From Mariprofundus ferrinatatus (GTDB lineage: Bacteria; Pseudomonadota; Zetaproteobacteria; Mariprofundales; Mariprofundaceae): a stretch of 64,000 bases of DNA. Numbering within the stretch: position 1 is the first letter of the stretch; every line of letters begins with the position of its first letter. The notes beneath the pieces are model-generated. The model was not told the DNA's origin and made no database searches. It saw only the letters and a list, made by a program, of their open reading frames with translations. Both the position numbers and the translations under genes were made by a program. The stretch covers positions 2,168,001-2,232,000 of the forward strand of contig NZ_CP018800.1 of the NCBI RefSeq assembly GCF_002795825.1, given 5' to 3'. Positions 4,181 through 33,745 of this stretch are shown piece by piece.

Positions 4181-5542
4181 TTATGCGGGAATGTTGACCG
4201 CCAGCAGTGCGTGCTCATCCGGTTTTACAGGCACCGGAATCTTCACCTGGTGGCCGCTGCCGGGAGCGACATCCATCGGGTTGCCGTAGCGGGCATCGTT
4301 GATCGATTCGACGACAAAAGTGTGGTTGCCACCGGGATTGATCAATTCGATCGAGTCCCCGACCGAAAATTTATTCTTCACGATCACCTCGGCAAGTTTT
4401 TTCTCCTCGTCATAGCCGACCACTTCGCCGACAAAACGCTGGGTGAGCCAGGTTGAGCTGCCGGTCTCGTAGTTCTGTGTCGAGGATGCGCGCTTGCGCG
4501 AATAGAAGCCGTCGGTATAGCCCCGGTTCGCCAGCGCATCGAGCTGGAACATCAGTGACTCGTCGAACGGCCGCCCTGCAATCGCATCATCAATCGCCTT
4601 GCGATAGACCTGTGCCGTACGCGCCACGTAGTAGTGGCTCTTGGTGCGCCCCTCGATCTTCAAAGAGTCTATTCCAATCTTCACCAGCCGCTCGACATGC
4701 TGCACGGCCCGAAGGTCCTTCGAGTTCATAATATAGGTGCCGTGCTCATCCTCGAACACCGGCATCTGGTCATCGGGGCGGTTCGGCTCGGTGAGTGTGT
4801 AGACTTGATCTGCCAGCGGGTGGCGCGCCACATGACCGGTCTCTGCGAACGGCTCCGGTGGCGACATCATGCCGTCCAGCGCCTTGATCGGAATCACATC
4901 GCCGCTGATATCCTCTTTGGCCCCCTCCATGCCGTACTCCCAGCGGCAGGCGTTGGTGCATGTACCCTGATTGGCATCGCGGTGGTTGAAATAACCGGAG
5001 AGAAGGCATCTTCCCGAATAGGCGATACAGAGTGCGCCGTGCACGAACACCTCAAGCTCGATATCGGGGCAGCGCTGGCGGATCTCCTCCACCTCATCCA
5101 GTGACAGTTCCCGCGAGAGGATCACTCTTTTCACACCGACCGACTGCCAGAATTTGACCGCCGCCCAGTTCATGGTGTTGGCCTGCACGGAGAGATGGAT
5201 CGGCATCTCAGGCCACTTCTCGCGCACCATCATCATCAGCCCCGGATCGGCCATAATCAGCGCATCCGGTGCCATATCGATCACCGGCTGCATGTGCTCG
5301 AGATAACGTTTGAGCTTGCTGTTGTGCGGCAGCAGATTGCTGGCGACAAAGAACTTCCTGCCCAGGGCATGCGCCTCGTCGATACCGGTTTTCAGGTTCT
5401 CCAGCTGGAAGTCGTTGTTGCGCACACGCAGTGAATAGCGCGGCTGGCCGGCATAGACGGCATCAGCACCAAAGGCGTAAGCGTAACGCATATTGCGAAT
5501 GGTTCCGGCCGGAGCCAGCAGTTCAATCTGTGGTTTGGTCAT
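4181..5542 (-). CDS. trhP: TrhP/YegQ-type peptidase U32 family tRNA hydroxylation protein
   Basis: The protein has 453 residues from ATG 5542, the same length as E. coli YegQ as I recall it; a TTG one codon upstream is less likely. AAGGAT precedes the ATG at suitable spacing. The N-terminus (ELLAPAGTIRNMRYAYAFGA) and the block VFVHGALCIAYSGRCLLSGY...QGTCTNACRWEY match TrhP closely. Its four Cys are the expected Fe-S ligands of this family. Known TrhP proteins hydroxylate U34 of certain tRNAs together with prephenate metabolism, despite the old 'peptidase U32' name. The final codons form one copy of the direct repeat at 52-108. The gene lies just downstream of the TAXI protein gene and is probably co-transcribed with it. 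Confidence 0.9.
   Translation of the reverse strand: MTKPQIELLAPAGTIRNMRYAYAFGADAVYAGQPRYSLRVRNNDFQLENLKTGIDEAHALGRKFFVASNLLPHNSKLKRYLEHMQPVIDMAPDALIMADPGLMMMVREKWPEMPIHLSVQANTMNWAAVKFWQSVGVKRVILSRELSLDEVEEIRQRCPDIELEVFVHGALCIAYSGRCLLSGYFNHRDANQGTCTNACRWEYGMEGAKEDISGDVIPIKALDGMMSPPEPFAETGHVARHPLADQVYTLTEPNRPDDQMPVFEDEHGTYIMNSKDLRAVQHVERLVKIGIDSLKIEGRTKSHYYVARTAQVYRKAIDDAIAGRPFDESLMFQLDALANRGYTDGFYSRKRASSTQNYETGSSTWLTQRFVGEVVGYDEEKKLAEVIVKNKFSVGDSIELINPGGNHTFVVESINDARYGNPMDVAPGSGHQVKIPVPVKPDEHALLAVNIPA
4185..4241. repeat. Direct repeat, copy 2 (inside the trhP 3' end)
   Basis: This is the partner of 52-108, with a perfect 35-base core at 4195-4229. It encodes the TrhP C-terminal residues VPVKPDEHALLAVNIPA. 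The 4.1 kb between the copies carries only the porin and hybrid kinase genes. Confidence 0.85.
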
Positions 5543-5545
5543 CAA

Positions 5546-6808
5546 TTATCCTTTTGCCCGCTTGACCGACTTGCGGATCAGCGAGAGATGCATGCGCAGG
5601 TTATAGAGCTCATCGGAGTAGGAGAGCGGCACATGCACCTTCCTGATCTCGCGATCGATGCGGTCGAGATCGTCAAGCAGTGCCTGGTCGAAGCCGTTGC
5701 CGAGCGCTTCATCAATGCGGTTAAGCTCCTCATACCAGCGGTAGATGCGCGAGCGTACCCGCCAGCGGTAGAGCGGCGGCATCACCTTGAACAGCGGCAA
5801 CAGGAGTGCGATAAAGGGGAGCAGCATCACCTTCAGGCGATCCACCAGCGTGGCCGCCCAGAACGGCAGATAGCGCTGCAGGAATGAGGGGCCTGACTTG
5901 TAAAAGCGTTCCGCCTCGCGGCTTAAGGGCATGCCGGAGTAGCGCGGGCTAGGGAAGTCGCCGGCCGCAGAGAAGAGGGTGCGGCCGCCGTGTATCCCGG
6001 CCGCCGCCTGCAGCAGCAGATCCTGCAGTGCCGGGTGCAGATCGGCATTGACCAGCAGCGTTGCTGTGGCGGCAAGGAGCAGGAGATCGTCAGATGGCAG
6101 GTCGGCCGCCAGATCAAGTGACCCCTCGGGTAGTGTCAGCGCCGAAAGGGTTTCAAAACGGCGGGTGTAGGCCTCGGCGCGCTCGAAGCTGAACAGCTGC
6201 ACGGAAGGGCTGCCGTTAAGCCTTTGCACCGTATCGGCCTTTTCCGATGCAACCAGGAAGAGTGCATCAATCCGGCCAGCCAGCAGCGCATCGGCCGCAG
6301 CATCCCCGCCGCTTGCCATGAGTTTAGCATTGGCTGCATCGATACCGTTGGCCGCGAGCAGCTGTTGCGCCAGCACCTGCGTACCGCTGCCATCGCCGCC
6401 GATGGCAATCGATTTGCCTTTCAACTCTCCAAGAGATGCGATCTGCACACCGTTGCGGAGAAACAGCCAGAGCGGCTCATAATAGATGCTGCCGAGCGAC
6501 TCTATGCCTTGATCCGCATCGGTGGCGATACCGCTCTGCACAAACGCCAGGTCCGCCTTGCCCGCCTTCAGGCGCGCCAGGTTCTCCAGCGAGCCGCCCG
6601 ACTCCAGCAGCGTGACGGTGATACCGTGCTGTTTCAGGTAATCACGATAGGCCTCGCCATGGGCATAATAGGCGCCCCCCTTGCTGCCAGCCGAGAGGGT
6701 CAGCGTGGTTGGCGGAGCGGGATCAACAAACTGGTAGGCCACGACGAAGCCTGCCAGCACCAGCAGCAGTGCAGGGGTAAATGTTTTGATTCGATCGCCA
6801 AGGCTCAT
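5546..6808 (-). CDS. Membrane-anchored TAXI-family (TRAP-type) solute-binding protein
   Basis: This 420-residue protein has an N-terminal hydrophobic anchor (about 12-27). Then comes the TAXI signature region: SAGSKGGAYYAHGEAYRDYL, the ESGGSLENLARLKAGKADLAFVQ block, and GDGSGTQVLAQQLLAANGI. A second hydrophobic segment (about 325-345, VMLLPFIALLLPLFKVMPPL) is followed by a charged cytoplasmic-looking tail of about 70 residues. Classical TAXI proteins are free periplasmic receptors of TRAP transporters. This double-anchored form, with no TRAP permease genes nearby, may instead be a sensor or an uncharacterised binding protein. The gene ends 3 bases before the trhP start, so the two are probably co-transcribed. 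The ligand is unknown. Confidence 0.8.
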   Translation of the reverse strand: MSLGDRIKTFTPALLLVLAGFVVAYQFVDPAPPTTLTLSAGSKGGAYYAHGEAYRDYLKQHGITVTLLESGGSLENLARLKAGKADLAFVQSGIATDADQGIESLGSIYYEPLWLFLRNGVQIASLGELKGKSIAIGGDGSGTQVLAQQLLAANGIDAANAKLMASGGDAAADALLAGRIDALFLVASEKADTVQRLNGSPSVQLFSFERAEAYTRRFETLSALTLPEGSLDLAADLPSDDLLLLAATATLLVNADLHPALQDLLLQAAAGIHGGRTLFSAAGDFPSPRYSGMPLSREAERFYKSGPSFLQRYLPFWAATLVDRLKVMLLPFIALLLPLFKVMPPLYRWRVRSRIYRWYEELNRIDEALGNGFDQALLDDLDRIDREIRKVHVPLSYSDELYNLRMHLSLIRKSVKRAKG

Positions 6809-6883: not shown

Positions 6884-7378
6884 TTATCGCTGCTGCCGTT
6901 TCGGATAATCGAAATCGAGAAGACGCCCTCCGCGTCCCGCATCGCGCCACGAATCAACCGGCAGTTCAAAGATGGCCACCCCGCAGGTGGGAATGTTATC
7001 GATCCGGGACTCCGACAGCCGGTTGGCGAGCTCGGTAATGCCCGGATTGTGCGCCAGCATTGCCAGTCGTCCGATATGGTCGGGGGTGTGCCGGATCAGC
7101 TTCAGCATGGTGTCGGGGCTTGCCAGGTAGAGCTCGTTTCTCGCCTCGATCGCCTCATCAGGCAGCCCCAGCGGTTCGACCAGCAGCGCTGCCGTCGCCC
7201 TTGTCCGGCGCGATGCGCTGATCACCAGCGCATCCGGAACAAGGCCGCGTTCGGCAAGCCTGCGCCCCATCTCTGGTGCATCGCGCAGGCCCCTGCCGCT
7301 CAGGTCGCGATCGAAATCGCGGGCTGCCAGATCATCCCAGCTCGATTTGGCATGGCGGATCAGAATCAGCTGTTTCAT
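6884..7378 (-). CDS. sixA: SixA-like histidine phosphatase
   Basis: This 164-residue protein of the histidine phosphatase superfamily has the phosphohistidine-forming motif LIRHAKSSW at residues 5-13, a Glu-containing core, and a second catalytic His in MLAHNPGITELA. Short single-domain members of this type are SixA-like phosphohistidine phosphatases. In E. coli, SixA acts on phosphorelay or nitrogen-PTS proteins. The gene is the last of the long minus-strand run starting at miaB, 3 bases after the TPS-like gene. The true substrate here is not evident. Confidence 0.85.
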   Translation of the reverse strand: MKQLILIRHAKSSWDDLAARDFDRDLSGRGLRDAPEMGRRLAERGLVPDALVISASRRTRATAALLVEPLGLPDEAIEARNELYLASPDTMLKLIRHTPDHIGRLAMLAHNPGITELANRLSESRIDNIPTCGVAIFELPVDSWRDAGRGGRLLDFDYPKRQQR

Positions 7379-7381
7379 GGT

Positions 7382-8005
7382 TTACTCCTCCCGGGCAGCG
7401 GCTGTGAGCGTGCGGGCCGCAGCGGCCGGATCCCCTGCTGCAAGAATGGCACCGATAACTGCCATGCTGTGCCCTTTCAGTTCGAGGCAATTGCCTGTGT
7501 CGATGCCGCCGAGTGCGACCACCGGTAAGGTGCTCTGCGCTGCCAGCGCATTGAAGCGCTTCACCCCGAGATGCGGCGCATCCGGATGGCTCAGTGTAGG
7601 GAAGACCGGCGACAGCAAGATGAAATCAGCGCCGTTATCCCCGGCCAGCTTCAACTCCTGTTCATTGTGGCAGGAGGCGGAGACGGTTTTCTGCGGATCG
7701 TTCAGCCAGCGCCGGATGGCCGGGATATTTCCGATATCGCCGCTCGCCACATGGACGCCGTCGGCTCCCACTGCGCCGGCAATATCGGCCTGCGTATGGA
7801 TGTAGAGCCTTGCCCCGTGTGCCGCAGTTGCTGCACGCAGTCCTGATGCCAGCGCCAGCAGCTTTGCGGAGCTGAGCCCCTTTTCCCGCAGCAGAACGGC
7901 ATCAACACCGCCCTTTAGCGCCGGCTCCACCGCCTCAAGGAGGTGATCTTCCGGAAAGCGGTTACAGTCTGTAATCAGAATAAGGGACGGGATATCAGCC
8001 CGCAC
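7382..8005 (-). CDS. Thiamine phosphate synthase-like (TPS/TenI superfamily) protein
   Basis: This 207-residue TIM-barrel protein starts at GTG 8005, with AAAGAG upstream. It retains LLREKGLS, VGADGVHVASGD and ALGGID. The usual ThiE motif with Asn-Asp before the R is replaced by IHTQAD, and the FPTTTK loop reads FPTLSHPDAPHLG. Loss of these phosphate and pyrimidine ligands argues against an ordinary ThiE. The SPVFPTLSHPDAPHLG and SASCHNEQEL signatures resemble the TPS-like half found fused to MutT in many gammaproteobacteria, from memory of that family. No thi genes are adjacent. A role in thiamine synthesis is therefore uncertain; a role linked to the separate Nudix protein at 50011-50397 is an alternative. 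Confidence 0.75.
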   Translation of the reverse strand: MRADIPSLILITDCNRFPEDHLLEAVEPALKGGVDAVLLREKGLSSAKLLALASGLRAATAAHGARLYIHTQADIAGAVGADGVHVASGDIGNIPAIRRWLNDPQKTVSASCHNEQELKLAGDNGADFILLSPVFPTLSHPDAPHLGVKRFNALAAQSTLPVVALGGIDTGNCLELKGHSMAVIGAILAAGDPAAAARTLTAAAREE

Positions 8006-8008
8006 GGA

Positions 8009-8416
8009 TCAGAACTCTTTCAACACCCAGTTCGGCACAGAGAGCCGCTTGCCGCCACCGGGAAGGCGCTGCTCGAAGTTGCCATCACCGTTCGGATCAT
8101 AGAGATAGTAGGCAGGAAGATCGCCGGCAGGCTGCACCTTGATCTTATATACGCGCCCGTGCACCGCATACTCGGTGATGGTTGCGCCATCGTTTCGCTG
8201 ATAGGAGCGCACATCGACAGCCACATCACTGTCAGGCGCCGCCAGCTCGTCCTGCAGGTTCGGAGCGCTCTCCTGCAGGCCCGTATTTTCAGCAGGAGGC
8301 GTACTCTCAGCCGCACTGGAGTCCGGCGGGGGCGGAACATCATGCTCTTCAGCCAGAGCGCTGGAAGAGAGCATCAGAAAGAGTGAAACAGGCAGGAGGA
8401 GGTATCGCATCATCAT
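8009..8416 (-). CDS. DUF2782-family exported protein
   Basis: The protein has about 135 residues. Three consecutive ATG codons (8416, 8413, 8410) precede a signal peptide (RYLLLPVSLFLMLSSSALA), and I cannot choose among them. A Pro/Ser/Ala-rich linker follows. The conserved C-terminal domain (about 75-135) includes VYKIKVQPAGDLPAYYLYD and GDGNFEQRLPG, the DUF2782 pattern. The function of this family is unknown; members are small periplasmic proteins. The gene sits between the smr gene and the TPS-like gene, with only 3 bases before the latter, consistent with a shared transcript. Confidence 0.75.
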   Translation of the reverse strand: MMMRYLLLPVSLFLMLSSSALAEEHDVPPPPDSSAAESTPPAENTGLQESAPNLQDELAAPDSDVAVDVRSYQRNDGATITEYAVHGRVYKIKVQPAGDLPAYYLYDPNGDGNFEQRLPGGGKRLSVPNWVLKEF

Positions 8417-24906: not shown

Positions 24907-25524
24907 TTAACGCTTCAGCAGTTCATCGACAGCGGAAAACAGCTCCTCAGACACCTTGCGTTTTAATGGCCGATCCTCCCACTGGCTGCTTACATACTCC
25001 TGACCAATGGTATGTACTTCCAGCATGCTACTGCCTTCACTTTCCGCAACCACGCGCACCACAAAGCTATGACGGGTAAACCCTATTATAGAGGGCTGGA
25101 AGGTCGGATCATTTTCACCCTCGCGAACCCAGTCCGAGGTGATAATGCCGTTGGGTGAATCGACAACATCAACCGGAATATTCAGCGAGAACATAGCATC
25201 CACTACAGATGAAAGCACCCTGCCGGGCTGTGCATTGAAAGTACGCGCATCCAGGGTAACAGCCCTTCCGGCCAGCATACCCTTATAGGCCTCAGGCATA
25301 GCTCCAGCCTTACTCCCCACCACTCCGGCCACAGGCATCACATAGCCGGAACGAGATTCCGGAGATGCTGCCGTTTGCGCATGTGAAGCTTCACCCTGCA
25401 GATCTGAATCCTGCTGAGCACCCTGGCCGCCATCGGCCTCCCAAAACAGCTTCGGCATTCCACCGCAGGCAGAGAGCGCCAAGGCAAGTGAGGCGATCAA
25501 AGCAATTCGCATCGGATTCATCAT
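24907..25524 (-). CDS. BamC/DUF3576-like lipoprotein, paralogue 3 of 3
   Basis: This 205-residue protein has a lipobox (ALALSAC, Cys near 20) followed by GGMPKLFWEADG, the motif shared with its two upstream neighbours. A variable linker leads to a conserved domain (about 85-205) with GRAVTLDARTFNAQPGRVLSSVVDAM, SPNGIITSDWV and RVVAESEGSSMLEVHTIGQEY. The NGIITSDWV core recalls the BamC/DUF3576 families, but I can only suggest the relationship. It overlaps the preceding paralogue by 4 bases. Position +2 after the Cys is Gly, so by E. coli rules it would go to the outer membrane. Confidence 0.7.
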   Translation of the reverse strand: MMNPMRIALIASLALALSACGGMPKLFWEADGGQGAQQDSDLQGEASHAQTAASPESRSGYVMPVAGVVGSKAGAMPEAYKGMLAGRAVTLDARTFNAQPGRVLSSVVDAMFSLNIPVDVVDSPNGIITSDWVREGENDPTFQPSIIGFTRHSFVVRVVAESEGSSMLEVHTIGQEYVSSQWEDRPLKRKVSEELFSAVDELLKR

Positions 25525-26210
25525 GGTTCAATACTCCTGGCCGCTTCAGCAGGCGCTTCTCTGGCAGGCGGAATTCTCGCCACCTGCTCCTCGATAGCGG
25601 CAAACAATTCATCACTCCTGTCTGAGAGGCTTCGTTTATTCAGCCAATGGCCATTCTGGTATGCCTGCGTAAGCAGATGCACTTCGACCCGGCTGCGATG
25701 AATGCCACCCTCGTTAAGGCGGAATACACGCACAATAAAGCGATAACGAACAACATTGATTCTGCTCATTCCAATTGACCCGAGAATTGAATCGGAAAGT
25801 GCTGAATCGCCCTTTCTGACCCAGTCAGTGGTAATGATGCCGCTTGGCGAGTCAACTGAATTAACCGGAAGGTTCATCTGAGTCATTGCATCCAAGGCAG
25901 ATGAGAGAAGCTGGCCTGCCGTAACATCGTAAAGCCGGGCATTCAGGGCTACCTTTTTACCTGCTTTCGCAACGATCACATCATACTTTTCAGGCAGCGG
26001 GGCTGCCGCAGCAGTCAGAGTCGCCTTTTCATCCACTGCCGGAAGATTAAGTTCTCCTGTTAGTTCAGGGGGGAGATTAAGCGGCGCACGGAAAGCCTCA
26101 CCTGAGCCGCCATTGTCATCGCTATCCCAGAACATCTTGGGCACGCTGCTGCAGGCTGATAACGAGATGATCGTGATTAACAGAAGAAGGTAGTGAACGG
26201 TATGTTTCAT
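25521..26210 (-). CDS. BamC/DUF3576-like lipoprotein, paralogue 2 of 3
   Basis: The protein has 229 residues from ATG 26210, which directly precedes the signal sequence (KHTVHYLLLLITIISLSAC). The frame is open to 26264, but that start lacks a signal peptide. After the lipobox Cys comes SSVPKMFWDSDD. The C-terminal domain carries GKKVALNARLYDVTAGQLLSS, SPSGIITTDWV and a RYRFIVRVFRLNEGG strand. It has a C-terminal extension rich in Ala/Pro/Glu that its paralogues lack. It is the middle gene of three. The role is unknown; an outer-membrane assembly accessory is one possibility. Confidence 0.7.
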   Translation of the reverse strand: MKHTVHYLLLLITIISLSACSSVPKMFWDSDDNGGSGEAFRAPLNLPPELTGELNLPAVDEKATLTAAAAPLPEKYDVIVAKAGKKVALNARLYDVTAGQLLSSALDAMTQMNLPVNSVDSPSGIITTDWVRKGDSALSDSILGSIGMSRINVVRYRFIVRVFRLNEGGIHRSRVEVHLLTQAYQNGHWLNKRSLSDRSDELFAAIEEQVARIPPAREAPAEAARSIEP

Positions 26211-26309
26211 AGGCGGATTCCATCCATTCACCGGCCCTGGGTCAAGCTCAGTTTGCCTGATCAAAACAGGCAGTCCATCCGACCCATGCTACCGGCAGAG
26301 AATTAAGCC

Positions 26310-26912
26310 CTACAAAAGAGCCAACTGACGCTCAATCTCTCCGAACAGATTCACATCGTCCGTATCATGGTTTCTGGAGTTGACCCAGTGACCCCTGTAC
26401 TCCTGATGAAGCGTTCGCACTTCAAGCCTGCTCTTCTGTTGTTCACCCTCAAGGCGGAAGACTCGGACAATATACCGGTGTCGCGTTGCGCGCGGTGAGG
26501 AATCCCCAGTCAGACCAGCCAACAAACCGGGACTTTCCAGCACCTTTTTAATCCACTCCGAAATTACAACGCCGCCCTGAAGATCAGAGGATGTAACGGG
26601 AATATTCAATGAAAGCATAGCCTTCTCTACGGCTGAGAAGAGGTGACGGGCATCTGCATTGTATTGTCGTGCATGAACTGCTACCGCCTTACCTGCGACG
26701 GCCTGACTGTAGCCATCCGGCATCTGGCTTGTATCCGAACTGGCTGTTTCGGTCAGCACCGGGGGCACATCGAGAGGAACATCACCACCCGATCTGTAAT
26801 CGGGCCGGCCAGTGCCTTCATCAGTACTCCAGAACAGTTTGGGCATGCTGTCACAGCCAGTCAGGGAGATAAGCAGAGCGATTAAAAGAAGGGGGCGAAT
26901 GATATTTTTCAT
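26310..26912 (-). CDS. BamC/DUF3576-like lipoprotein, paralogue 1 of 3
   Basis: The protein has 200 residues from ATG 26912. The signal peptide ends in LLISLTGC, followed by DSMPKLFWSTDEG. The conserved domain includes GKAVAVHARQYNADARHLFSAVEKAML, LQGGVVISEWI and RHRYIVRVFRLEGEQQKSRLEV. Asp directly follows the Cys (+2), which in E. coli is an inner-membrane retention signal, unlike Gly or Ser in the other two. It is the first of the three tandem copies and lies downstream of the Cyc2-like gene, separated from it by a strong terminator. Confidence 0.7.
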   Translation of the reverse strand: MKNIIRPLLLIALLISLTGCDSMPKLFWSTDEGTGRPDYRSGGDVPLDVPPVLTETASSDTSQMPDGYSQAVAGKAVAVHARQYNADARHLFSAVEKAMLSLNIPVTSSDLQGGVVISEWIKKVLESPGLLAGLTGDSSPRATRHRYIVRVFRLEGEQQKSRLEVRTLHQEYRGHWVNSRNHDTDDVNLFGEIERQLALL

Positions 26913-26977: not shown

Positions 26978-27008
26978 AAAAAAAGAGGAGGGCCGAAGCC
27001 CTCCTCTC
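26978..27008 (-). terminator. Strong intrinsic terminator of the Cyc2-like gene
   Basis: On the minus strand, a 10-bp GC-rich stem (AGAGGAGGGC / GCCCTCCTCT) is capped by a TTCG tetraloop and followed by eight Ts. It starts about 30 bases after the Cyc2-like stop and separates that gene from the lipoprotein trio. Confidence 0.92.
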
Positions 27009-27037
27009 TAAGACATTTCCTGGTAAGGAAGCCGCTA

Positions 27038-28252
27038 TTACAGCAGTGCTTCGATGTCCAGTACAGTAGTCTTGGTAGTAGCACCAACACCACCGGTAGG
27101 AGTGGTCTTGCTGTTGTTGTAGATCAGAGCAACTACGAAGTTCTGGTAGATCTCGTACTCTGCAGCAACCTGCCACTGAGCAGTCTTAGACGCAGCGTTC
27201 TTCAGCTGGCCAATACCACCACCAACGATGATGTTGTGGGTAGGCTTAACTTCGATACGTGCAGAGTAACCCTTCATAGCAGAAGTTGAAGTGTTGTAAA
27301 CGTTTACGTTTGTTGCAGTAGATGCAGCAGCGTGAGCGTAGTCAGCATAGAAACCGATGCCGATGTCGCCGATCTCGCCCTGCAGCTGACCGTCGATGAA
27401 CCACTTCTTCATGTCAGCATTAGTGCCTACAGGAGCGCCAACCAGTGCGTTCAGAGTGTTAGCGTTACCGGTCTTGCCTGAGTTGATGCCGAAACCGATA
27501 CCAGCGCGCATGCCGGCAACTTCAGGAGTCAGGAACAGACGTGCAACAGGAGCCAGCTTCCAGCTGTTGGTTACGCCCAGAGCAGAACTGGTAGTGACCA
27601 GAGACAGGTTAGCATGAACCAGCTCGTTGCCGTAGAAGAAACCAGCACCACCGGTGCCGATGCTCAGGTTGTTGTTAGCAGACAGGCCTTTACCGCTCAG
27701 CATACCGCCGTGCTGACCGAAAGTAGAACCTACTTCGTAAGCATAAGTCTCGCCGAAGCCAGAGTTGAAGATAGAGACACCAGCTTTACCGCCAGCCATA
27801 TCTACAGAGTGGGTCAGCTTGAAGTTGCCGAAGCCGCCAGTAGCAGTTGGGCCGCCGAATGCGATCTCAACGAAAGTACCGGTATTGGTGCCAACACGGC
27901 CACCTACGATAACTACCTGGTCAGCAGTGATTGCAGCAGTCTTGGTAGTACCAGCAGCGGTGCTAACAGAAGTGAAGTTTGGACGCAGAACCAGAGTCAT
28001 GTTCACAGAAGAGGTGATTGACAGGTGATCGTCTTCAACCAGAGCCTGTTCGCCAACGTCAGTCAGAGCGCCAGCTTTAAAAGCAGCACCGAAAGCGTTA
28101 AGAGCAGGGAAGCTCAGGTGGTGGCATGCCAAGCAGGCAGCGCCGGTCTGGCGTGCAAACGCCGGAATTGCTTCAGAAGTGGTTGGAGCAACTGCAACAG
28201 CAGAAACAGCAACAACAGCGAAGGCAGCAGCAGAAAGAAGCATCTTCTTCAT
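27038..28252 (-). CDS. Cyc2-like outer-membrane monohaem cytochrome-porin fusion
   Basis: This 404-residue protein has a signal peptide (1-28, ending SEA). The conserved cytochrome entry IPAFARQTGAACLACHHLSFP follows, with one haem-binding CLACH at 40-44, then LNAFGAAFKAG. The rest (about 70-404) reads as alternating beta-strands of a porin barrel. This plan, with FARQTG before a single CXXCH and a barrel behind it, is that of Cyc2, the outer-membrane iron oxidase of neutrophilic and acidophilic iron oxidisers. It departs from common Cyc2 in having FGAAFK where FGRxFK is usual, and in ending with Leu rather than an aromatic residue. Codons are strongly biased (GCT, GGT, GTT, AAC, CTG), as in the ribosomal genes at 62.4-63.2 kb, which suggests high expression. 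AGGA precedes the ATG by 9 bases. The family assignment is probable; iron as the substrate is inferred. Confidence 0.75.
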   Translation of the reverse strand: MKKMLLSAAAFAVVAVSAVAVAPTTSEAIPAFARQTGAACLACHHLSFPALNAFGAAFKAGALTDVGEQALVEDDHLSITSSVNMTLVLRPNFTSVSTAAGTTKTAAITADQVVIVGGRVGTNTGTFVEIAFGGPTATGGFGNFKLTHSVDMAGGKAGVSIFNSGFGETYAYEVGSTFGQHGGMLSGKGLSANNNLSIGTGGAGFFYGNELVHANLSLVTTSSALGVTNSWKLAPVARLFLTPEVAGMRAGIGFGINSGKTGNANTLNALVGAPVGTNADMKKWFIDGQLQGEIGDIGIGFYADYAHAAASTATNVNVYNTSTSAMKGYSARIEVKPTHNIIVGGGIGQLKNAASKTAQWQVAAEYEIYQNFVVALIYNNSKTTPTGGVGATTKTTVLDIEALL

Positions 28253-28407
28253 GTTTAATATCCTCGTAAAAGTTATTTGACTCCGTGGAGCCAGTGCAAA
28301 TCATTACCCGCCCCTCGTTCCAAGCGCTTCAGCACTCGTCCCCACGGGTGGACGATGCGAACTTTGCGTGACCCGCATCACTGGGTCAACAAGACACATC
28401 TGGTGTG

Positions 28408-28520: not shown

Positions 28521-30218
28521 ATGACACAAAAACTCTCCAACAACAAGAAGCGCCGGCTGAATGAATTTGCCGAACAGGCATGGGCCTATGCATCCAAAGG
28601 CAAGTTTGCTGCTGCACTAAACATCTGCGACAAAGCCGACAGCCTGTTCGAGAACTTTCCGGAGATAGTCTATGTGCGCGGCATGAGCGCTGCCATGCAG
28701 GGAGATTACCCATCGGCCAGCACCTGGCTTGAACAGGCCAGCAAGGCCATGCCGAAAAACCTCAGCCTGATGGTTAATCTCGCGAATGCGCTTCTTTTCT
28801 CCAACAGAGAAGAGGAGGCAGTTCCGCTGTATGCCCATATTCTTGAGAACGACCCGCAGCTGTTTGAGAAAGCCAATGGCTATGGCGCCTATGCCATAGC
28901 ACTCTCGGAGCTCGGGGAGTACAACCGGGCGATGCAGTTCTTCGATGAGGCCATCAAACGAATCCAGTCGGGGGATCTGGAGTTGATCAAAAAGGCTGCC
29001 CATATTTGCCATGTACGCCGCAATAGCGACAAGGCCATCTCACTGCTTGAAAAGGCAAGGTCGTCACATCCTGAAAATTACTCGATACCGTTTCAGATGG
29101 CCCTGTTGCTTATGCAATGGAACAGACATGACGAGGCCCGCGCGCTATTGCGCGAGACATTGCGGATCCACCCGGGCCATATAGGGGCCCTGTCGTTACT
29201 GGTGGCGAGCGGGGAGTACGAGGAGCGCCAGGCAGATATTACCCGTCTGCAAACAATCTACGAGCAGGCAGAACCTGACAGTAATGACCGCCTCATCGGA
29301 GCCTATGCCCTTGGAGATGAAGCTGACAGGAGTGGAGAGTACAGCGCAGCATTCAACTACTGGAGTGAAGGTAACCGGATGCGCCGGGCTCAGGTCGCCT
29401 ATCATGATGCCGAGCAGGAGAGGCTGTTCAAGGCTGCCATCGCCCCATTTTCAGCTGAGCGGTTCACGCATGCAGCATGCAAAGGTGCCAGCGATGCCGC
29501 TCCGATATTTATTGTTGGCATGCCCCGTTGCGGCTCCTCGCTTCTGGAGCGGGCACTCTCCCTTCATCCTGACCTGACGGATGCCGGCGAGATAGGTGCC
29601 CTGCAGCAATCCATCGCCGGACGCATGCGCAAACCATCAACCGGCCTCATCATGGAGAGACTGGAAAGCCTGGATGACGCCGGATTTCTCGAAGTCGGCA
29701 CAGAGTATGCCCGGCGTCTCGCTGAAGAGCACAATATTGACGGGCGTGCAATCGACAAGTCATTGGGCAATTTTGGCCTTATTGGCGCAATCACCAAGGC
29801 ACTTCCGAATGCGCGTATTATTCACCTTGCCAGAGATCCGATGGCCTCCTGCCTCTCCATGTTTCAGGCCCACTTCACCGCAGGCGTCAACTACTCCTTT
29901 GATCTTGATGAACTGGGGCGTCACTACAACCGCTACCTGAAAGCCATGCAGCACTGGCGCGACGTGCTTCCATCGGGGGTCATGCTGGAAGTTCACTATG
30001 AAGAGCTTGTCAGCAACACCGAATCTGAGTTGCATCGTGTTCTTGAATTCTGCAATGTCGAGTGGAATGACGCCTGCCTGCAGACACACAAGGCGGGCGG
30101 CTCAGTCAGTACTGCAAGTGTTTTCCAGGTGCGCAAGCCGATCCATCAGAAGTCGATCGCCCGCTGGAAGCATTATGAAGCGCAACTGGCCCCGCTCAAA
30201 AAACACCTTACACAGTGA
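28521..30218 (+). CDS. TPR-repeat sulfotransferase, paralogue 1 of 3
   Basis: The protein has 565 residues, with AGGAG 7 bases before the ATG. It begins with the shared signature KLSNNKKRRLNEFAEQA. Tetratricopeptide-like helices fill about residues 15-300 (for example ALNICDKADSLFENFPEIVYVRG). A sulfotransferase domain occupies about 328-560. Its PAPS 5'-phosphosulfate loop is IFIVGMPRCGSSLLERAL, and the 3'-phosphate-binding strand is around RIIHLARDPMASCLSMF. The C-terminus QVRKPIHQKSIARWKHYE is almost invariant among the three copies. No signal peptide or TM is seen, so it acts in the cytoplasm. The acceptor (sugar, lipid or protein Tyr) is unknown. Confidence 0.85.
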   Translation: MTQKLSNNKKRRLNEFAEQAWAYASKGKFAAALNICDKADSLFENFPEIVYVRGMSAAMQGDYPSASTWLEQASKAMPKNLSLMVNLANALLFSNREEEAVPLYAHILENDPQLFEKANGYGAYAIALSELGEYNRAMQFFDEAIKRIQSGDLELIKKAAHICHVRRNSDKAISLLEKARSSHPENYSIPFQMALLLMQWNRHDEARALLRETLRIHPGHIGALSLLVASGEYEERQADITRLQTIYEQAEPDSNDRLIGAYALGDEADRSGEYSAAFNYWSEGNRMRRAQVAYHDAEQERLFKAAIAPFSAERFTHAACKGASDAAPIFIVGMPRCGSSLLERALSLHPDLTDAGEIGALQQSIAGRMRKPSTGLIMERLESLDDAGFLEVGTEYARRLAEEHNIDGRAIDKSLGNFGLIGAITKALPNARIIHLARDPMASCLSMFQAHFTAGVNYSFDLDELGRHYNRYLKAMQHWRDVLPSGVMLEVHYEELVSNTESELHRVLEFCNVEWNDACLQTHKAGGSVSTASVFQVRKPIHQKSIARWKHYEAQLAPLKKHLTQ

Positions 30219-30326
30219 TCGCCCTATGCTGTTACCCCCTGCAATGGGCATGCCGCTCCTCATCAGCACGTCATCGCAACATGCGAGAACGAATCATCAT
30301 GGCCCGGAATTGAGAGGAAGCAGCAC

Positions 30327-32027
30327 ATGAAGGCGGCAAAACTTTCCAACAACAAAAGGCGCCAACTCGTCTCGCTTGCCGATCAAGCGAAGTCCCGACT
30401 TCAGGGAAAGCACTACGCCGCAGCAGATCAACTTTGCAATCAGGCAGACAAGATATACAAAGACCATCCTGAAATCATGAATGTTCGTGGTTTGATCTCT
30501 CTGCTGAAGGGAGACAACACTTCCGCCCTGAAGTGGCTTTCCAGTGCCGCTGAAGCCGCACCGAAGCAAATCGAGATTCAGGCCAATTACGCCGGATGCC
30601 TGATTCTTTGCGGCCAGGAAGAGCAGGCTCTGGAGATTTACCCAAAAGTCGTACAGGAACTGCCGCGTCAGGGTGAAGTCCATCTCGGCTATGCTACCGC
30701 ACTGGCTGCAGCAGGTGAGTATCGTCTGGCCATCAAGGTTCTCGAACATGGCTTGAGCATCAACCCCAAGCATCTCCGCATGTACAAGAAACTTGCTGAC
30801 ATCTACAACGATCTAGGTGAAACCGAAAACTCCATAGATCTCATGGAAAAAGCCCGGCAGCTGTCACCTGATAATATTGACATTCTATTTGATACGGCCA
30901 TTTACCTGATTGGCCAGGGCAACATTGAGTCGGGTCGGAATTTTCTGAAACAGGTAATAGAGCGCAACCCTCAGCATATCAATGCACTCTCCCTGCTGGC
31001 AAACAGCAGCAAAGAGGGAAATGACGCCACCCTGGCATTAATCAGACAGGTCTATGACCAGAGTGAGGCCGGCAGCCAGCTTCATGTTACAGCAGCTTAT
31101 ACCCTTGGCAACGCAGCTGAATCACATGGGGATTACGAGCAGGCTTTTGGGCTCTGGCAGGAGGCCAACGCGCAGCGTCGCAAAACCTTCACATATGAGG
31201 CCAGCAGCGTTAAGTCGATGCATGACGCTATCATTGCCGCATTCCCCGCCTCACGCTTTACCCCCACCCCCGATGCCGGCATCTCAACATCCGGGACGTC
31301 ACCCGTTTTTATCGTTGGCACTCCTCGTAGCGGCTCCACCCTGCTGGAGCGGGCGCTTATCCATCATCACGACCTGAGCAGTATCGGAGAGATCGATGTG
31401 ATCGAACAGGCCATTGTCGGCCGCAAGCGCAAGGTGCGCGATCAGCAGCCTCTGGAGATGATGCTCTCATCTGACAACACCCTCCTCCGCGAAGTGGGCT
31501 TCGAGATCCAGCGGCGACTGCAAGAGGAGCACCGCATTGCAGGCAGGGCGGTTTGCAAAGCACTGAACTATTATATGTATGCCGGACTGATCGCAGTGGC
31601 CATGCCAGGCGCGCGCATTATCCATATAAAGCGAAACCCCTTGGCGGCATGCCTCTCCATGTTCAAGGAGGATTTTGGCAGCTCCCAGCCATACAGCTAC
31701 GATCTCGAGGAGATGGGCCAGCGCTATCAATGGTATGACGCTATGATTCAGCACTGGCGCCAGGCACTTCCGGAACATGTTATGCTGGAGACAAGTTACG
31801 AGAGTCTTGTGAGCGATCCCGAGCCTGAGCTGCGACGCATTCTTGCCTTCTGCAACCTCGAGTGGGATCCCGCCTGCCTTGCCACCCACGAAGCAAAGGG
31901 TACAGTAGCCACAGCCAGTCTCATTCAGGTGCGCCAGCCCATTCACAAGAAATCGATTGCCCGCTGGAAACACTACGAAGAACAGCTCGCTCCTCTCATG
32001 AAATTCGTAAAGGACCAGGTAACATGA
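30327..32027 (+). CDS. TPR-repeat sulfotransferase, paralogue 2 of 3
   Basis: This 566-residue protein has the same architecture as its neighbours: AKLSNNKRRQLVSLADQA start, TPR region to about residue 300, then VFIVGTPRSGSTLLERAL as the PAPS loop near 326, and RIIHIKRNPLAACLSMF. The C-terminus is QVRQPIHKKSIARWKHYEE. It is the most divergent of the three in the linker following the PAPS loop (HHHDLSSIGEIDVIEQ instead of DAGEI). It lies 108 bases after the first copy and overlaps the third by 4 bases. The substrate is unknown. Confidence 0.85.
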   Translation: MKAAKLSNNKRRQLVSLADQAKSRLQGKHYAAADQLCNQADKIYKDHPEIMNVRGLISLLKGDNTSALKWLSSAAEAAPKQIEIQANYAGCLILCGQEEQALEIYPKVVQELPRQGEVHLGYATALAAAGEYRLAIKVLEHGLSINPKHLRMYKKLADIYNDLGETENSIDLMEKARQLSPDNIDILFDTAIYLIGQGNIESGRNFLKQVIERNPQHINALSLLANSSKEGNDATLALIRQVYDQSEAGSQLHVTAAYTLGNAAESHGDYEQAFGLWQEANAQRRKTFTYEASSVKSMHDAIIAAFPASRFTPTPDAGISTSGTSPVFIVGTPRSGSTLLERALIHHHDLSSIGEIDVIEQAIVGRKRKVRDQQPLEMMLSSDNTLLREVGFEIQRRLQEEHRIAGRAVCKALNYYMYAGLIAVAMPGARIIHIKRNPLAACLSMFKEDFGSSQPYSYDLEEMGQRYQWYDAMIQHWRQALPEHVMLETSYESLVSDPEPELRRILAFCNLEWDPACLATHEAKGTVATASLIQVRQPIHKKSIARWKHYEEQLAPLMKFVKDQVT

Positions 32028-33745
32028 AAACGAAGGCTTCATCCAGAAAGATTTCCAACAATAAGAGGCGCCAACTGAACCAGATCGCCCAACAGGCGCT
32101 GCTGCATATTAACGACGGAAAAATCCTGGCTGCAGCAACCCTGTGCGACAAGGCTGACGATATTTTTAAAAACTTTCCTGAGATCATGTATGCGCGTGGC
32201 ATGATTGCCGCTTTTCAGGAGGATTACCCCACTTCATGCAAATGGCTGGAACCGGCTTGCGCCGCCATGCCAAAACGCTTCGATTGCCTGGCCAATCTTG
32301 CCAGCAGCATGTCTCTATGTGACAGAAAGGAAGAGACCGCTGCGATTTTCCCCCGGATCATGGAGAAGGCACCGGATCTATTCGAGAGAATGAACGGCCA
32401 TGCTGTTTTTGGTGACCTGCTTATCGACCTTGGAGAATACCAGCAGGCCATGAAACTCTTAGGGCAGGCGGTTGCCAGAACCAACTCGAAAGATGCAGAT
32501 ACAGCTATCAAAGCCTCTGGGCTGTATAATGAATTCGGGAAGCCCGATGTTGCAGTTTCACTGCTTGAGAAGGCGCAAACGACAGCGCCGACTGATCCAA
32601 GAATCCCTTACGAGATTGCAACCATCCTCATCAAGCAAAACCGGAACGAAGAGGCCAGGGCCTTGCTGAAGAAGGCTTTGGCCATAAAGCCAGGCTTTAT
32701 TGATGCTTTGTTCCTTCTCATAAAAACCGGGCCATATCAGGGAATGGAGGATGACCTGGCCAAAATGCGCGAGATCTATCGGCAAGCTCCCCCGGAAAGC
32801 AGCCATCGCATTTTACCCGCCTTTGCACTTGGTGATGCTGAAGACAAGGAAGGTCACTATCCTGAAGCCTTTGACTACTGGAGTGAAGGCAACCGAATTC
32901 ACAGGAACCATACAGGATACAACGAGCAGGATCAGGAGAGCATCCACCAGGCTGCTATCGAGGCATTCCCCGCGCCCCGCTTTTTGCATGAGACTTCCGA
33001 GAACTGCAGCAGCGCATCTCCCATCTTCATTGTTGGCATGCCACGCTGTGGATCCACACTGCTTGAACGGGCCCTCTCCCGCCATCCTATGCTTACCGAT
33101 GCCGGCGAAATCGATGCCCTGGGTCAATCCATCGCCGGTCGCATGCGCTTGAGAAGCAATCAACTGGTCATCGAAAACCTGAAGACATTGGATGACGAAG
33201 CCCTGCTTGGAGTAGGCAGAGAATACATCCGCCGAATCAGGAACGAATATCAAGTCGAAGGAACGGCCGTAGACAAATCTCTGGGCAACTATCTCTTTAT
33301 CGGAGCAATTGCCAAAGCTCTCCCCAATGCACACATCATCCATATACAACGTGAGCCCATGGCCTCCTGTCTCTCCATGTTTCAGGCGAACTTTGACAAT
33401 GTACACTACTCCTTCAACCTCGATGAGTTGGGGCGTCAATATGCCCGCTATCAGAAGCTCATGCAGCACTGGAGAAACGTGCTGCCGCAAGGAGTAATGT
33501 TTGAGACCAGCTACGAAAACCTGGTCAGCAATACCGAGGCAGAATTGCGGCGCATACTGGAATACTGTGGCCTCGAATGGCATCCTGATTGCCTGGCCAC
33601 GCATAAAGCCACAGGATCAGTGAATACTGCAAGTCTGTTCCAGGTTCGACAGCCCATTCACCAGAAATCCGTCGCTCGCTGGAAGCACTACGAAGAGCAG
33701 CTTGCCCCACTCAGGAAATACATCAAAGCGTCGTCGAATTCGTAA
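32024..33745 (+). CDS. TPR-repeat sulfotransferase, paralogue 3 of 3
   Basis: The protein has 573 residues from the ATG overlapping the previous stop (ATGA); a long open extension to 31862 lies inside paralogue 2 and is rejected. It begins RKISNNKRRQLNQIAQQA. TPR helices precede the sulfotransferase domain with IFIVGMPRCGSTLLERAL near 332 and HIIHIQREPMASCLSMF. The C-terminus is QVRQPIHQKSVARWKHYEE. It is closer to copy 1 than to copy 2 in the sulfotransferase half (shared DAGEI, AGRMR and DKSLGN). No clear terminator follows. Confidence 0.85.
   Translation: MKTKASSRKISNNKRRQLNQIAQQALLHINDGKILAAATLCDKADDIFKNFPEIMYARGMIAAFQEDYPTSCKWLEPACAAMPKRFDCLANLASSMSLCDRKEETAAIFPRIMEKAPDLFERMNGHAVFGDLLIDLGEYQQAMKLLGQAVARTNSKDADTAIKASGLYNEFGKPDVAVSLLEKAQTTAPTDPRIPYEIATILIKQNRNEEARALLKKALAIKPGFIDALFLLIKTGPYQGMEDDLAKMREIYRQAPPESSHRILPAFALGDAEDKEGHYPEAFDYWSEGNRIHRNHTGYNEQDQESIHQAAIEAFPAPRFLHETSENCSSASPIFIVGMPRCGSTLLERALSRHPMLTDAGEIDALGQSIAGRMRLRSNQLVIENLKTLDDEALLGVGREYIRRIRNEYQVEGTAVDKSLGNYLFIGAIAKALPNAHIIHIQREPMASCLSMFQANFDNVHYSFNLDELGRQYARYQKLMQHWRNVLPQGVMFETSYENLVSNTEAELRRILEYCGLEWHPDCLATHKATGSVNTASLFQVRQPIHQKSVARWKHYEEQLAPLRKYIKASSNS

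Follow-up and report, generated by a model that had tools for sequence, protein, structure and literature searches.

The cyc2 locus of a Mariprofundus genome: most probably a standard single-copy Cyc2 with a conserved candidate control region upstream

The window analysed here is a stretch of 64,000 nucleotides from Mariprofundus ferrinatatus, and the locus under study is a minus-strand gene at 27038-28252 together with its flanks (Table 1). The open reading frame starts with ATG and reads MKKMLLSAAAFAVVAVSAVAVAPTTSEAIPAFARQTGAACLACHHLSFPALNAFGAAFK...DIEALL (404 aa). A signal peptide, MKKMLLSAAAFAVVAVSAVAVAPTTSEA, was assigned by inspection and is conserved class-wide. It is followed by a monohaem domain, IPAFARQTGAACLACHHLSFPALNAFGAAFKA, in which the motifs occur in the order AIPAFARQT-GAA-CLACH-HLSF-PAL, and then by a beta barrel. 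Counted over the whole protein, there are exactly two Cys residues and one CXXCH. FGAAFK occupies residues 54-59, and the protein ends in EALL. The layout of the original prediction, a signal peptide with FARQTG...CLACH and a barrel-like sequence behind it, was thus confirmed by the 404-aa frame, the single CXXCH and a 16-strand model. The strong TTCG terminator that it had named was also found; it starts 28 nt after the stop codon. Upstream of the gene lie a predicted promoter with a palindrome in its spacer and a leader with two potential stem-loops.

Table 1. Features of the cyc2 locus (window coordinates)
Feature	Position	Strand	Basis or remark
cyc2 CDS (404 aa; signal peptide, monohaem domain, 16-strand barrel)	27038..28252	(-)	ATG start, ORF call, homologues, model, tree
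Signal-peptide codons 1-28	28169..28252	(-)	amino acids and synonymous sites both kept across the class
Haem domain, residues 29-60	28073..28168	(-)	
CLACH haem-attachment motif, residues 40-44, sole CXXCH	28121..28135	(-)	
Codon 56, Ala vs Arg in 43/46 class sequences (FGAAFK for FGRxFK)	28085..28087	(-)	
Beta barrel, residues 81-403, 16 predicted strands	27044..28012	(-)	AlphaFold2 model and Foldseek
Intrinsic terminator, 12-pair stem, TTCG loop, T-run	26982..27009	(-)	
Predicted promoter, TTGACC 28389..28384, 17-nt spacer, CAAAGT 28366..28361	28361..28389	(-)	kept in relatives
CRP-type palindrome GTGA-TGCGGG-TCAC, within promoter spacer	28368..28381	(-)	
Leader stem-loop SL1 (P1 ACCCGT/GCGGGT, P2 CGAGTGC/GCGCTTG)	28306..28349	(-)	weaker evidence
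Leader hairpin SL2, TGGCTC-CACG-GAGTCA	28278..28293	(-)	ends 26 nt before ATG
Shine-Dalgarno-like GAGGAT	28260..28265	(-)	GAGGAT or TAGGAT in many relatives

The consensus that defines Cyc2 is AXPXFAR[Q/K][T/Y]...CXXCH...PXL (PMC8406198). In the window protein, AIPAFARQT precedes CLACH, and PAL stands four residues after it. As regards size, Cyc2 proteins have at least 365 aa and a 16-strand porin; here we found 404 aa and 16 strands of at least 8 residues. Pfam and NCBIfam profile scans of the protein gave no match, and neither did a PDB sequence search. Cyc2 matches were found in 68 of the 78 genomes of the class, and the fetched loci yielded 46 distinct full-length proteins of a type that we call A and 15 of type B. 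In a maximum-likelihood tree, all 46 type-A rows were split from the 15 type-B rows by a 100/100 branch. The window Cyc2 nests in the class-wide type-A family as sister to a sequence of the same genus (L016) and then to a second one (L015), at 100/96 and 100/99. A Cluster 1 cyc2 has been described from every zetaproteobacterial group, and a Cluster 3 one from fewer of them (PMC7029218). Since this distribution fits, we infer that type A is Cluster 1 and type B is Cluster 3, a naming drawn from the class-wide distribution and the literature with a class-internal tree. We conclude, with a probability of about 0.94, that the gene is cyc2 and that its product is the outer-membrane cytochrome-porin Cyc2, of the standard Cluster-1 type and present as a single copy; the Mariprofundus that carries it is most probably M. 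ferrinatatus CP-8. In PMC5513912, the cyc2 genes of M. ferrinatatus CP-8 and M. aestuarium CP-5 are described as coding for an outer-membrane barrel protein with a signal sequence and a single CXXCH, as seen here. The window gene is very probably that published CP-8 gene, and thus already reported; the passages of PMC5513912 consulted make no mention of a promoter palindrome, a leader hairpin or codon conservation.

The codon usage of the gene was compared with that of a cluster of ribosomal-protein and elongation-factor genes of the same genome (L085). The codon adaptation index (CAI) of cyc2 was 0.82, which ranks first among 54 greedily called ORFs of the window (next 0.74). It also exceeds every gene of the reference (best 0.81, mean 0.72), a set that contains a few spurious small ORFs blurring the index slightly. 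The predicted bias like that of ribosomal genes is therefore borne out, and the value is not an average one for the window. High expression of cyc2 agrees with meta-omics of iron mats, in which Mariprofundaceae often express Cluster 1 cyc2 more than any other gene (PMC7029218).

In the upstream region, TTGACC and CAAAGT are 17 nt apart, and GTGATGCGGGTCAC (28381..28368) lies in between. The promoter was missed by a consensus scan because CAAAGT falls below the scan threshold. The element in the spacer, GTGA-N6-TCAC, is a TGTGA-N6-TCACA-like palindrome, and this is the classic form of a DNA operator of CRP. It occurs in 20 of 44 cyc2 upstream regions of the class vs 0.4% of mononucleotide shuffles, and most of these sites share the same TTGAC...GTT frame. 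The full element occurs once in its own genome, and matches with three mismatches stay at the level of a reversed-pattern control. The genome codes for two proteins with the HTH_Crp_2 domain of the CRP family, both showing, by inspection, an R-E-x-x-x-R recognition helix. Judging from these sequences, a CRP-family protein may act at the cyc2 promoter, and it is predicted to occlude or modulate it through the spacer palindrome.

The hairpin SL2 is found 24-31 nt before the ATG across the class and shows compensatory changes. At the SL2 offset, 78% of 45 class leaders reach the stem threshold vs 9% of dinucleotide shuffles; a stem as strong was present in 6 of 32 other window genes (19%). A covariation test was run on 16 sequences, with the stem aligned without gaps and 500 shuffles, which leave relatedness in. 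In this set, 99% of the cells were paired, seven two-sided changes were counted, and four pairs had two-sided changes; no shuffle out of 500 reached the score. When the partner strand was slid by one column, pairing fell to 51-57%. Variants in the same place include TAACCC/GGGTTA, TGGTCC/GGATCA, CGGCTC/GAGCCG and TAGCTT/AAGCTA, whose arms were picked by complementarity, so that the list is no test alone. RNAalifold recovered only four SL2 pairs, as the variable stems of the leader defeated alignment by MAFFT. The SL2 sequence is unique within its own genome at up to three mismatches. In the upstream regions of Cluster-3-type cyc2, SL2 was not found in the same place. An Rfam search of the upstream region gave nothing above the gathering threshold, the best hits scoring 11.7 and 9.9 bits vs cut-offs of 40 and 100. 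Control by CsrA through GGA motifs was also considered and dropped, as GGA is paired and not conserved.

In the case of SL1, the evidence comes from folds of single sequences, which ignore relatedness. From the promoter to SL2, the leader gives better folds than shuffled versions of it, with a mean z of -1.5 over 37 leaders (relatedness ignored). The outer stem of SL1 often starts 7-11 nt into the leader and ends 10-13 nt before SL2; in most leaders taken singly, the fold is not significant.

An alternative is that the inverted repeats arise by chance or serve as DNA operators only, and that the leader has no RNA function. The operator form of GTGA-N6-TCAC speaks for it, as do the longer leader stem P1, which taken singly is no better than shuffles in most species, the relatedness left in the SL2 shuffles, and the equally strong stems at the same offset in other window genes. 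An operator would be expected to conserve its letters, not pairing alone, and in SL2 the letters vary while pairing and place persist, which favours RNA. The covariation score and the excess of stems over shuffles among class leaders also count against chance. We consider the alternative unlikely, though it keeps a real share of the probability. On the reading that the leader works as RNA, its role would be, at a best guess, in mRNA stability or translation control: the hairpin is predicted to stabilise the 5' end of the mRNA or to keep the ribosome-binding region open.

Conservation continues into the coding sequence. Among the type-A proteins of the class, it amounts to 0.84 in the signal peptide, 0.84 in the haem domain and 0.49 in the barrel; in two neighbouring lipoproteins, identity in the signal peptide was only slightly above that in the rest of the protein. 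At identical residues in codons 2-28 of cyc2, the same codon was used in 64% of cases, where the codon usage of the genes themselves would give 38%. The corresponding values were 54% vs 47% for the haem domain and 50% vs 45% for the barrel. Other genes of the neighbourhood showed no consistent excess of codon conservation. High expression would be built in through codon choice, the conserved promoter with its CRP-type palindrome and the conserved leader hairpin. We put at even odds the proposal that a class-wide, cyc2-specific control module, made up of the operator promoter, the SL1/SL2 leader and the synonymously conserved signal-peptide codons, sets very high and iron-responsive expression. 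Its well-supported components are SL2 and the palindrome. Among the open-access papers searched, we found none that describes a leader of cyc2 or, for Zetaproteobacteria, a promoter of the gene, and no report was found of this upstream region (promoter palindrome and leader hairpin), which is common to relatives across the class.

The original prediction took the protein for a Cyc2 paralogue with a different electron donor or loop structure, marked by FGAAFK in place of FGRxFK and by a C-terminal Leu. A search of the complete one-contig genome (2,301,665 bp) with the Cyc2 query returned a single match at E<=1, the gene itself, and the DNA pattern FAxQxxG..C..CH also occurs there once. The window Cyc2 has no second copy in the genome and is therefore not a paralogue. 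The change from Arg to Ala at residue 56 is real; as a mark of divergence it fails. Arg stands in 43 of the 46 type-A proteins, Ala in the window protein and L049, and Val in L012; the three proteins without Arg belong to three separate lineages at wide distances in the tree. Type B has no Arg at this place, most of its members reading MGVAFR and the others a close variant. As three lineages and type B do without it, Arg56 is a common residue but does not define the family, and it has been lost repeatedly. The replacement by Ala is most likely neutral or mildly tuning. A C-terminal Leu is no difference, being shared by 10 of the 46 class sequences (M 17, L 10, I 9, F 5, Y 5). A paralogue specialised for another donor, or one with a different loop architecture, could draw on Arg56Ala and on HL in place of FQ after CXXCH. 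Its close relatives, however, share CHHLSFP and yet keep Arg, and the two nearest ones (L016, L015) have FGRSFK. The length of 404 is in the middle of the type-A range of 371-447, there is no further Cyc2 in the genome, and Arg has been lost independently elsewhere. We saw no sign of a different electron donor, and this reading is very improbable.

The barrel was modelled with AlphaFold2 on 12 aligned sequences (mean pLDDT 72, pTM 0.74). Counting strands of at least 8 residues, the model has 16 in positions 81-403; one extra 3-residue strand was left uncounted. Residues 1-43 stay under a pLDDT of 50 and confidence in the haem domain is low, so the model speaks for the barrel only. Foldseek against the PDB gave 251 matches at E<=0.001 with porins first (OmpT, PorB; OprP 2o4v at rank 25), and 16-strand porins were matched at a probability of 1.0. 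The published Cyc2 model is likewise a 16-strand porin related to OprP/OprO, with OprP 2o4v as its named template (PMC8406198). The model and the Foldseek result, together with a conserved C-terminal strand, leave next to no room for a protein without a barrel, namely a c-type cytochrome of the periplasm whose tail is of low complexity, which the Gly/Ala/Thr-rich sequence and the empty Pfam and NCBIfam scans might have suggested. As far as the class-internal tree, the model and the CAI within the window go, none of the three refuting conditions named with the original prediction (a place outside all Cyc2 clusters, a non-barrel model, an average CAI) spoke against Cyc2.

Compared with the Cluster 1 Cyc2 of Zetaproteobacteria, known from Mariprofundus ferrooxydans PV-1 (PMC8406198), the window protein is alike in its signal peptide, AXPXFARQT, one CXXCH, PXL, a length of about 400 aa, a 16-strand porin and a high-expression signature. 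It differs by Ala for Arg at residue 56 and is otherwise within the class range, PV-1 being compared by description. The Cluster-3-like Cyc2 found elsewhere in the class (L065-L078, L084) shares the signal peptide, one CXXCH and a porin-length protein. In contrast, it reads IPVFARKYG...CHTMFPKLxKMGVAFRERGF, has 446-483 aa, forms its own clade (100/100) and is absent from the window genome. Porins of the OprP/OprO type have the same barrel fold (2o4v, probability 1.0), whereas they have no cytochrome and about 9% identity to the window Cyc2.

Purified PV-1 Cyc2 oxidises Fe(II) and has a potential of +208 mV (PMC8406198). By analogy with this homologue, the window Cyc2 would sit in the outer membrane and oxidise iron by the same mechanism. 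Dissolved Fe(II) would enter the 16-strand barrel from outside and reduce the haem plug at its periplasmic mouth, and the electron would then pass to a periplasmic carrier.

Several observations concern the neighbouring genes and other Cyc2 proteins of the class. Beside cyc2, at 24907-26912 (-), the window carries three tandem paralogous lipoprotein genes whose products have MPKLFW or VPKMFW right after the lipobox Cys; two of the three were scanned against Pfam and gave no match. Lipoprotein genes also adjoin cyc2, in synteny, in the two nearest relatives. Divergent from cyc2 are three tandem TPR-sulfotransferase genes, at 28521-33745 (+), which adjoin it in the two nearest relatives too, apparently in fewer copies. 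Tandem copies of cyc2 itself were seen elsewhere, identical in L012 (G011; 4817-6034 and 7043-8260) and similar in L064 (G074). At the C-terminus, 36 of the 46 class Cyc2 proteins carry Leu, Met or Ile and not the aromatic residue usual for outer-membrane barrels. A deep type-A subclade, L055-L061 (G076, G045, G053, G054, G026, G023, G022), is characterised by CLNCHFQAIPRL...FR and an aromatic C-terminus, EYVY or EYVF, and its protein is the sole Cyc2 found in some genomes. Only a Cluster-3-like Cyc2, with no type-A copy, was found in L065-L069 and L084 (G048, G061, G062, G059, G055, G004); G048 is a 99%-complete genome of the same genus in 4 contigs.

About ten class genomes, the window genome not among them, code for free-standing proteins of 77-98 aa that carry the haem motif of Cyc2, TPAFSRQ..ADCRTCHFQ...LNKFGREFK, but lack a porin. 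Examples are L079 1251-1484, L080 1075-1347, L081 1450-1746, L082 1356-1634 and L083 from about 1025 (G046, G051, G047, G069 and G052, respectively). In L080, L081 and L083 the gene directly follows that of a MerR-type regulator (LitR-like, by inspection); a photolyase is near it in L083 and a lipocalin in L081. As the motif has been described as unique to Cyc2, such proteins could be miscounted as Cyc2 fragments.

At the protein level, the analysis adds little: one more Cyc2 proves to be of the standard kind, and the proposal of an odd paralogue falls away. The gene is a marker of iron oxidation at neutral pH, and its transcript level is used as a marker of activity (PMC7029218). For the question of how cyc2 is controlled in these hard-to-engineer bacteria, on which the papers searched gave no account, the operator and the leader hairpin offer a concrete, testable lead. 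A conserved leader would also affect how cyc2 transcript counts are read, as a matter of stability vs synthesis.
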